From: Acidimicrobiales bacterium
GTDB taxonomy: Bacteria > Actinomycetota > Acidimicrobiia > Acidimicrobiales > AC-14
DNA length: 64,000 bases
Reading direction: 5' to 3'
NCBI GenBank assembly: GCA_025463925.1
Contig: JAODBK010000100.1
Location: 62,001-126,000 of the forward strand
Part shown: piece after piece, positions 15,735 through 19,406 of the stretch
Numbering within the stretch: the first letter of the stretch is position 1
Layout of the letters: the number at the start of each line of letters is the position of its first letter
Notes under the pieces: model-generated
Databases searched by the model: none
Seen by the model: only the letters and a program-made list of their open reading frames with translations
Told to the model about the DNA's origin: nothing
Position numbers and translations under genes: made by a program

Positions 15735-17300
15735 CTAGGCCACGACTTCGCCGACTGCCATCAGCCCGTGCCTCATCGCGAACATCGCGGCCGCGCCCCG
15801 GCTTCTCACACCGAGCTTGGCGTACACGTGCTCGAGGTGAGCGTTGACCGTCTTGGCCGAAATGGTCAGCTCCTGTGCGATCTGCTTCTTGGTCAGTCCC
15901 CGGCAGAACAGCACCAGCACCTCGACCTCGCGGGCGCTGAGCCCGCCGGCGTGGCCGGCAGGCCCGCGCACCCGATGCCCGGCCGCGTCCAGCACGGCCT
16001 GGACGGCGTCGCCGTCCAGGCGACCGGCGGTCACCTCGGCGGTGAGCACCTGGCGCGCCTGGTCCTGAGCGCATGCCGCGCGGTGAGGTCGCGGTTCGAG
16101 CAGCGCGTGGTAGACGTCGGCCGCGGCGATGACCCGGGCGCTCATCGGGAGCCCGTCGGCTCTGAGGCCCGATGGGTAGCCCGAACCGTCCATCCGCTCG
16201 TGGTGCAGCGCGGCAAGCTGGCCGATCGCGCCCAGGACGGCGGGCTTCGAGAACGTGCGCGCCGTGAGATAGGGATGGGTGCGTATCCGCTCGCGCTCGG
16301 CCTCGGTCAGCCGGCCGGTCTTGGCCAAGATCCCAGAGGACACGCCGATGGTGCCGACGTCGTGCACAAGAGCGGCTCTGCGTACCAGCAAGACGTCGTC
16401 GCTCGGCAGCCCGACGGAGGTGGCAGCAGCCGCGGCCAGCTGCGCGACCCCACGTGAGTGTCCGAGCGTGAACGGTGACTTGACATCGGCGTAGTCGGCG
16501 AAGGCCTCCAGCGCCATGTCGAGCTCCTCGCCATGCAGCTCGCGGGCAAGCGTGGGGTGCCCGCCGATCAGCGTCTCCCACTCGTCGACCTCGTCGAGGG
16601 AGCCGAGCAGTTCGCCGGCGTGTGCGCAGAAGCGGTCGACGAGCTCGGGATCGAATTCGGTGGCCCGCCGCGATCGGAGCATCTCCACCGCCGCGTCCAC
16701 CCCACCGATCCGATGCAACGCCTCGACGTCATTCGCGACATGGACGATCCGCATGATGCGGGCGATCTCGCCGCCCGCCAACCGGGATGGAGAGCCCTTG
16801 CCGTCCCAACGCTCGAACGCCTGTTGGAGTGGGTCGCGCACGTCGGGTCCGAGTCCGAGGCGCAGCGACAGGTCGCCCGAGGTCTCGCAGTGCGAGGCCA
16901 TCGACCGCTCGATCTCCTTGGACCCGCCCGCCAGGAACCGACCGATCATCGTGAGGCGCCGGACCGGGGAGGAGCCGCTGGCGACGTGGCCGATCATGAA
17001 ACGCATCATCGGCAGCCCGGTCAGGTCGACCAGGTAGCTGTCGGCGCGCACCGCCATGTCGTCGCCAAACCACTTGCCCATCTCGTGCGCGTCAGCGACA
17101 CACCCGACCCACGCCAGCAGCGACACGTAGAAGATCGCCGCCCGCTCGTCGTCGGACGAGCCGTCGAGCTCTGCCATCCGCAGCGCGATGACCGTCTGGC
17201 GGATGATGTGCTGCTGCGGCTGACCCAATCCCAGATCGGTCGCCAGTGACAGCGCGGCCACCAACTCAGCCAGTCGAACTCCGTCCTGCGCGCCGGTCAC
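15735..17300 (-). CDS. HD-GYP domain protein with C-terminal LuxR helix-turn-helix
   Basis: A 521-aa fusion. The N-terminal third (about 1-270) is helical and may be a degenerate HD region. A full HD-GYP domain lies at about 280-430: HDVGTIGV, LHHERMDGSGYPSGL and AAADVYHAL retain the metal and GYP residues of cyclic-di-GMP or linear-dinucleotide phosphodiesterases. A GerE/LuxR DNA-binding domain follows at about 455-515 (LSAREVEVLVLFCRGLTKKQ ... TVNAHLEHVYAKLG). No receiver domain is present, so DNA binding may respond directly to a nucleotide. The start is the GTG at 17300 after GGAG. Confidence 0.9.
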   Translation of the reverse strand: MTGAQDGVRLAELVAALSLATDLGLGQPQQHIIRQTVIALRMAELDGSSDDERAAIFYVSLLAWVGCVADAHEMGKWFGDDMAVRADSYLVDLTGLPMMRFMIGHVASGSSPVRRLTMIGRFLAGGSKEIERSMASHCETSGDLSLRLGLGPDVRDPLQQAFERWDGKGSPSRLAGGEIARIMRIVHVANDVEALHRIGGVDAAVEMLRSRRATEFDPELVDRFCAHAGELLGSLDEVDEWETLIGGHPTLARELHGEELDMALEAFADYADVKSPFTLGHSRGVAQLAAAAATSVGLPSDDVLLVRRAALVHDVGTIGVSSGILAKTGRLTEAERERIRTHPYLTARTFSKPAVLGAIGQLAALHHERMDGSGYPSGLRADGLPMSARVIAAADVYHALLEPRPHRAACAQDQARQVLTAEVTAGRLDGDAVQAVLDAAGHRVRGPAGHAGGLSAREVEVLVLFCRGLTKKQIAQELTISAKTVNAHLEHVYAKLGVRSRGAAAMFAMRHGLMAVGEVVA

Positions 17301-17774: not shown

Positions 17775-18179
17775 CTACGCCGCGTCCAACTCGAACCACA
17801 CCGCCTTGGTCGTGTCGCACGTCGAAAAGCCCCAGCCCGTCGCGAGTGCCTGGACCAACAGCATCCCCCACCCGCCCTCTTCGCCGGGCGGTTTTGGGCT
17901 TGGCCACTGGGCCGGAGAGCCATCCTCCACCGTGACGCGGACGTGATCGCTGGCGATGGCAACCATGAGCACGGCCGGGCCGACCGCGTGGCGGAACGCG
18001 TTCGTGACGACCTCCGACGTCAACAGCTCGACGACGCCACACCGCTCCTCTGTCCAGCCGCGATCGCGGAGTGATCCTCCGACATAGCGGCGCGCCGCAT
18101 GTGGCATCCACGGGTCCGGCGCCAGCGCGATCCTCCACGTTCGGTCGCGTTCGTCAATTGCTTGATCCAGCACCCGCAT
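17775..18179 (-). CDS. RsbW-like anti-sigma factor / HATPase_c_2 protein
   Basis: A 134-aa GHKL ATPase-fold protein of the anti-sigma type. The N box is LLTSEVVTNAFRHA (residues about 52-65), the D box VEDGSP, and the glycine motif GGWGMLLVQALATGWG. The start is the ATG at 18179, with GGAGG 6 bases upstream. Such proteins bind sigma factors or phosphorylate STAS antagonists. Neither a sigma factor nor an antagonist gene is adjacent, so the partner is elsewhere. Confidence 0.85.
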   Translation of the reverse strand: MRVLDQAIDERDRTWRIALAPDPWMPHAARRYVGGSLRDRGWTEERCGVVELLTSEVVTNAFRHAVGPAVLMVAIASDHVRVTVEDGSPAQWPSPKPPGEEGGWGMLLVQALATGWGFSTCDTTKAVWFELDAA

Positions 18180-18405
18180 AGGCCCTCCACTCTCTGTGGC
18201 TCATCATTTGCGCCACCAGGGACTGGAGCAGCGGTTCCCAGCTTCGTGTGAACGATCCTGGGCAGGATGGTTCCATCCGGACCAGTCGAGACGTACCCCG
18301 GCGCCCACCCGACGAACCGTCGATCGAGGATGGTCGCCTGGTCGCAGTGACCCTCGGGCGACGGCATCGCTTGGCCCAGGTACGTCACGATCGTGAACCG
18401 TTTCT

Positions 18406-18675
18406 CTACTCCTTCGGGACCTCGGGTCCGAGACGGTCCCGGACAAGTGCGGCGATCTCCCTCGGCTCCGCGTGACGCCCGAGCGCCGCTTTGGAGTAGA
18501 TCAACTCCCCGTCGAGGACGACCTCGAATCGACCGTTGGACGACGGGATCAGGTCGATGGAGGCGACGATGGGAGCCCACCCGTTCAGCAGCTCGTCCGC
18601 CAGACCGACGGCCCTCGGGACATAGTTTCAGGGGACACAGAACTCGATGCTGAAGTGGTGGCGCGGGTCCATCAT
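18406..18675 (-). CDS. Probable selenoprotein of the SelT/SelW/SelH (Rdx) family with in-frame TGA
   Basis: Read through one TGA (18628-18630), this 89-residue frame gives MMDPRHHFSIEFCVPU, then NYVPRAVGLADELLNGWAP and a thioredoxin-like tail (RFEVVLDGELIYSK ... EIAALVRDRL), ending with TAG at 18406. This matches Rdx/SelW proteins: an N-terminal beta strand with the CxxC/CxxU redox motif, an AxxLAxELL helix and an FEVxxDGxLI hairpin. Here C13-V-P-U16 would be the redox pair. Two adjacent ATGs (18675, 18672) follow GAAGG. A hairpin just after the TGA could serve as a bacterial SECIS. The alternatives are a TGA nonsense mutation in a CxxC ancestor or a sequencing error. The sel machinery is not in the window. 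Confidence 0.6.
18595..18627 (-). promoter_or_regulatory. Candidate bacterial SECIS hairpin
   Basis: In the mRNA, six bases after the UGA, GUCC (18618-18621) can pair with GGAC (18595-18598). An upper stem GCC/GGC then presents the loop GUCGGUCU, which contains GGUCU as in the E. coli fdhF SECIS loop. An alternative upper stem of 5 pairs with a GUC loop is possible. The distance from the UGA fits bacterial SECIS elements. The fold was drawn by hand and not scored. Confidence 0.4.
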
Positions 18676-18803: not shown

Positions 18804-18812
18804 GTGCCGTCC

Positions 18813-19406
18813 ATGGCGGCGACCGACGTCCGGCCGATGGACCGCGCGAAGACAGAGCAGGCTCTGAAGTCGGCGGCGCTCGCGCAGCTTGGGCGAGAGG
18901 GCGTGCTCGCGGGCCTGAATCTGCGCAAGGTTGCCGACGAGGCCGGCGTGAACCGTGGGCTCGTCTACCACTACTTCGGTTCGCGTCGTGACCTACTCCG
19001 ATCGGCGCTGCGCGACGAGCTGCGCGAGCAGCAGGCGTCGATCAGTCCGGCCTACCGCCTCCCCCTCAAGGAGCGGGTGAAGGCGTTCTTGCGCATCATG
19101 AGTGGGCATGATCGGCTCGTCCGGCTGACGACCCTCCTCCTGCTCGACGGCAGCCAGGACCGCACCGTGCTTCTGGCCCAGGCCGCCCGCGACGCGTACG
19201 AGAGCGACCGCGAGGACGGGGTCCTCGCCGACGACGTCGACGTCGACGCGCTTCATGTTGCCCTGGTGGCCGCAGTGTTCGGCTACACGCTCCACCGACG
19301 GTCCTTTGCTCGCGAACTGGGCGTCCCGCCCAAGGAACTCGACGAGCGGATGGGCAAGATGCTCGAGCGCCTCGTCGGTGGGCTTGAAGGCTCCTTGGCG
19401 TCGTGA
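18813..19406 (+). CDS. TetR family regulator of importer cassette 2
   Basis: A 197-aa TetR protein from the ATG at 18813 (MAATDVRPMDRAKTEQALK); an in-frame GTG at 18804 would add three residues. The HTH is at about residues 30-55 (NLRKVADEAGVNRGLVYHYF). The promoter carries a TTTAGCA/TGCTAAA palindrome that recurs in the control region of the SDR and LivF-LivHMG operons 3 kb away. It is probably the repressor of the whole 18.8-30.4 kb cassette. The ABC1 kinase gene starts 16 bases after its stop, so the two are likely co-transcribed. Confidence 0.9.
   Translation: MAATDVRPMDRAKTEQALKSAALAQLGREGVLAGLNLRKVADEAGVNRGLVYHYFGSRRDLLRSALRDELREQQASISPAYRLPLKERVKAFLRIMSGHDRLVRLTTLLLLDGSQDRTVLLAQAARDAYESDREDGVLADDVDVDALHVALVAAVFGYTLHRRSFARELGVPPKELDERMGKMLERLVGGLEGSLAS

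Follow-up and report, generated by a model that had tools for sequence, protein, structure and literature searches.

The window analysed here is a stretch of 64,000 nucleotides of Acidimicrobiales DNA whose minus strand carries, at 18406 to 18675, a small gene of the Rdx family with a TGA inside its reading frame. The gene, its internal features and its neighbours are as follows, with the evidence for each call in brackets:

18406..18675, minus strand: predicted SELENOW-like (Rdx family) selenoprotein coding sequence, 89 residues from an ATG start to a TAG stop (translation, Pfam Rdx, relatives)
18628..18639, minus strand: redox motif C-V-P-U, from Cys13 to the predicted Sec16 (translation, alignment with relatives)
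18628..18630, minus strand: in-frame TGA, the predicted selenocysteine codon (TGA conservation in homologues, Sec machinery in the genome)
18597..18611, minus strand: putative bacterial SECIS upper stem-loop, CCGUC-GGUCU-GGCGG (third-position invariance, fdhA loop)
18804..19406, plus strand: divergently transcribed TetR-family regulator (Pfam TetR_N, E 6.4e-10; context only)
15735..17300, minus strand: HD domain and LuxR-type regulator (downstream of the selenoprotein gene)
17775..18179, minus strand: HATPase_c_2 (anti-sigma-like) protein (downstream of the selenoprotein gene)

Between the stop codon of the selenoprotein gene and the HATPase gene, the minus strand (18180-18405) is open in one frame. 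When the ORFs around the Rdx gene were compared by eye in 11 relatives, no conserved neighbours were obvious.

The Rdx gene and its in-frame TGA

Read with the TGA as a residue, 18675-18406 (minus strand) translates as MMDPRHHFSIEFCVP-U16-NYVPRAVGLADELLNGWAPIVASIDLIPSSNGRFEVVLDGELIYSKAALGRHAEPREIAALVRDRLGPEVPKE, followed by TAG. The TGA (18630-18628) is codon 16 and the sole in-frame TGA of the frame, and 73 sense codons and the TAG follow it. The initial annotation had held that the minus strand gives a complete Rdx protein only if the TGA is decoded, and this is borne out: the 89-residue product matches Pfam Rdx (PF10262; E 6.8e-19; 68.3 bits, cut-off 22.6; profile positions 3-74 of 74) and TIGR02174 (47.9 bits against a cut-off of 34.2). 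Against the NCBIfam equivalog NF041051 (SelTWH_Campy) the protein scores below the curated cut-off (80.1 versus 88 bits). The TGA does fall on the redox position (C-V-P-U), as had been claimed, and aligns with the second Cys of the CxxC of the solved structures 2fa8 and 3dex. The further statement that no start lies after the TGA needs correction, as one in-frame TTG was found at codon 58, which would yield only 32 residues. The genome has no Rdx gene other than this TGA-bearing copy.

Relatives can be aligned with the gene across its full length and have the same Met start, with reading frame and start codon kept. The codons past the TGA are, by this comparison, under purifying selection (dN/dS of 0.15-0.29 across 69 post-TGA codons in 10 comparisons with relatives). 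At the level of sequence, membership of the Rdx family, the position of the UGA, the presence of the machinery genes, conservation and purifying selection are all established.

Sec machinery in the same genome

The genome is 4.08 Mb in 119 contigs, and the search for sel genes that had been proposed for it returned selB, selD, tRNA-Sec and selA. SelB is a 705-residue ORF scoring 286 bits against TIGR00475 (cut-off 242), selD scores 320.6 bits, and a tRNA-Sec with anticodon UCA scores 68 bits, a call with which ARAGORN agrees. The selA gene is split between contigs C29 (L017) and C95 (L018), with one piece at an end of each, and is incomplete because of the contig breaks. The piece on C95 adjoins selB. 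The arrangement suggests that selA and selB form a cluster which the assembly has broken.

The selenoprotein genes checked in the genome were Rdx, fdhA and selD. The formate dehydrogenase alpha-type gene fdhA (L083, C104:12665-13411) has an in-frame TGA at ARIUHSS; the piece as cut gave no match in the NCBIfam search. TGA also serves as an ordinary stop, ending 9 of the 12 window ORFs checked. Judged by its gene content, the organism is equipped to read UGA as Sec.

TGA conservation across relatives

The initial annotation had suggested asking whether homologues have Cys or Sec at this codon, and had named a genome lacking selB and selC, with TGC in close relatives, as pointing to mutation or error. 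The opposite was found, all close relatives having TGA. The retention of this TGA in homologues also rules out a frame that is open by chance. A homologue occurs in 110 of 397 sampled genomes of the order, with at least one TGA in every one among the matches listed, and across the class Rdx occurs in 155 of 395 sampled genomes, with TGA in 149 of the 150 matches listed. The sole TGA-free Rdx among the class matches listed (L023, in genome G004) reads CxxC by way of TGC, and a search of that genome for tRNA-Sec and selA gave no match for either. The Pfam score of this Rdx is far above those of the other class matches. It could stem from transfer or contamination. In the wider phylum, it is mainly other lineages that have TGA-free Rdx, and several of these have large genomes. 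Within the class, tRNA-Sec or selA is present in 152 of the 155 genomes with Rdx versus 126 of the 240 without it (Fisher p 6e-27), and this figure, like the permutation figure given below, disregards shared ancestry, related genomes not being independent.

The Rdx of an Acidimicrobiaceae MAG (L053) is 70% identical to the window copy and, over the stretch compared, the same in sequence as L099 from the same order. This match points to Acidimicrobiales as the order of the window. Three Chloroflexi MAGs (L054, L055 and L057) have a similar CxxUNY Rdx with TGA. Transfer between phyla might account for their likeness to the window clade.

The candidate SECIS hairpin

A published model of the bacterial SECIS (PMC13188914, Fig. 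2) specifies a loop of 3-9 nt with a G within its first two positions, a stem of 4-16 bp, a distance of 16-37 nt from the UGA and an MFE of at most -7.5 kcal/mol. The hairpin with a GGUCU-containing loop that the initial annotation had described is present at 18611-18597 and fits the geometry of this model (5-nt loop, 5 bp, 21 nt from the UGA), but it is not the predicted minimum-energy fold of the window copy: the energy is -7.1 kcal/mol with the GGUCU hairpin enforced versus -12.3 kcal/mol unconstrained, with another loop, and the hairpin makes up about 0.03% of the predicted ensemble. The corresponding hairpin energies are -10.8 in L091 and -12.2 in L053, and both of these relatives favour the GGUCU hairpin, as does the fdhA of the window's own genome, where a strong hairpin with the same pentaloop lies 18 nt past the UGA. 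Local fold z-scores in the window copy are near zero (0.33, 0.98 and -0.10), so that single-sequence folding offers no proof of a SECIS. Conservation across relatives was therefore used instead, and it is this, rather than folding, that speaks for the SECIS suggested earlier.

Over 11 divergent relatives, none of the six consecutive codons of the hairpin, +6 to +11, varies at its third position, as against only 13 of 83 invariant third positions gene-wide (hypergeometric p 4.5e-6; run-permutation p 3.6e-4 for the +6 to +11 run), although the test was devised after the alignment had been inspected and these p-values are optimistic. A rank test of codon identity in amino-acid-invariant columns gave a p of only 0.054. 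A hairpin at +14 to +30 in another 56 sequences is preserved in 321 of 336 cells, where shuffling reached at most 308. Distant members have another hairpin, mostly with a CGUGN loop, 4 nt closer to the UGA and kept with paired changes. The class-wide RNAalifold consensus is weak (-3.1), since the window clade has its hairpin 4 nt further from the UGA than the rest, and splitting the sequences into window clade and rest resolved this. On the conservation data, the exact GGUCU hairpin is likely to be the SECIS of the window gene.

Interpretation

Here, we propose with very high confidence that the window gene encodes a SELENOW-like Rdx selenoprotein in which UGA-16 is decoded as Sec through SelB and a SECIS hairpin within the reading frame, directly past the UGA. 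Going by gene content and conservation, SelB with GTP and Sec-tRNA would act on the hairpin to decode the UGA at codon 16. Going by its family, the product would be a small thioredoxin-like thiol/selenol oxidoreductase with a Cys13-x-x-Sec16 redox pair. We infer the Sec insertion itself, the binding of the hairpin by SelB and the redox role from such sequence comparisons, and the thioredoxin-like fold from the solved structures of homologues identified through their sequence.

Might the gene instead be a Cys-type Rdx gene whose codon 16 has been turned into a stop by nonsense mutation or by faulty sequencing? The assembly is fragmented, at 119 contigs, and Cys forms of Rdx do occur in the phylum, but purifying selection on the post-TGA codons and the presence of Sec machinery in the genome make such an origin hardly credible; it is ruled out by the TGA being shared by independent genomes of many families. 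We give next to no weight to a UGA reassigned (for example to Trp) or read through without selenium. The Rdx frame would be open under such a code as well, but codon 16 is the redox Cys/Sec position of the family and not a Trp, and a tRNA-Sec with a UCA anticodon is present along with SelB. A reassigned code is ruled out, with at least 9 neighbouring ORFs ending in TGA.

A different matter is whether Sec is inserted but SelB binds another fold of the same stretch. The GUC loop of the minimum-energy fold in the window copy, where little of the predicted ensemble takes the GGUCU form, lends this some appeal, but we consider it unlikely given that synonymous sites in the GGUCU loop and its arms do not vary within the clade and that L053, L091 and the organism's own fdhA favour the GGUCU fold.

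A UxxU variant in a related genus

Outside the window, a second TGA replaces the first redox Cys in 16 of the 20 Rdx-bearing species of genus g33, in the same order, turning CxxU into UxxU (L115-L126, L136, L137, L147 and L149). The sequence is TGAGTTCCTTGA in 15 of these and TGAGTCCCTTGA in one. The other four species have one TGA only, and two of them (G181 and G242) read as CVPU. For the 16 UxxU genes, mean dN over mean dS past the motif is 0.23, and among the 12 UxxU genes listed the residues ahead of the first TGA are conserved, together with the ATG. UxxU genomes in the class sample have tRNA-Sec and selA (G320, G322 and G383) or selA (G252). It seems probable that in this one genus UxxU (TGAGTTCCTTGA) arose from the CxxU that sister species retain, a single downstream hairpin serving the two UGAs.

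Two reviews give the prokaryotic SELENOW-like family as CxxU only, one of them with a single Sec, and list UxxU for other families only. A UxxU variant of SELENOW-like proteins, rarer than the CxxU form, may thus be undescribed. If true, this would be a diselenide variant that neither of these reviews lists for the family, one found in relatives only and not in the window copy, and the step from CxxU to UxxU within one genus would offer a natural comparison for the effect of a second selenium on a redox motif.

Comparison with known systems

Prokaryotic SELENOW-like selenoproteins are well described and, in marine samples, count among the most widespread of selenoprotein families (PMC1794560, PMC2398784). 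The window gene shares with them the Rdx family (PF10262, CxxU) and a UGA at the second redox position (PMC1794560, PMC2398784, PMC13188914), as well as a putative SECIS region directly downstream and an occurrence tied to Sec machinery. The window gene differs from those described in its host lineage, Acidimicrobiales, where the copies make up a group with the motif CVPU(N/D)Y and a hairpin whose loop is GGUCU. We found no literature linking Acidimicrobiia with a SELENOW-like selenoprotein, in a limited collection that makes this weak evidence of novelty.

The nearest solved structures by sequence are the Cys-form Rdx proteins 2fa8 (Atu0228), 3dex (SAV_2001) and 2p0g, with a nearly full-length match; in the alignments shown, 2fa8 and 3dex have the second redox Cys where the window gene has UGA. 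The bacterial FdhA selenoprotein (L083) belongs to a protein family unrelated to Rdx but would use the same decoding system, with a GGUCU pentaloop 18 nt from its UGA versus 21 nt in the Rdx gene.

Thus, the window gene is a further predicted SELENOW-like selenoprotein, of an already known type, in Acidimicrobiia. SELENOW-like proteins of this class are almost always Sec forms that accompany the Sec machinery. Standard annotation cuts genes of this kind short or omits them, and a widespread actinobacterial selenoprotein may be absent from annotations.
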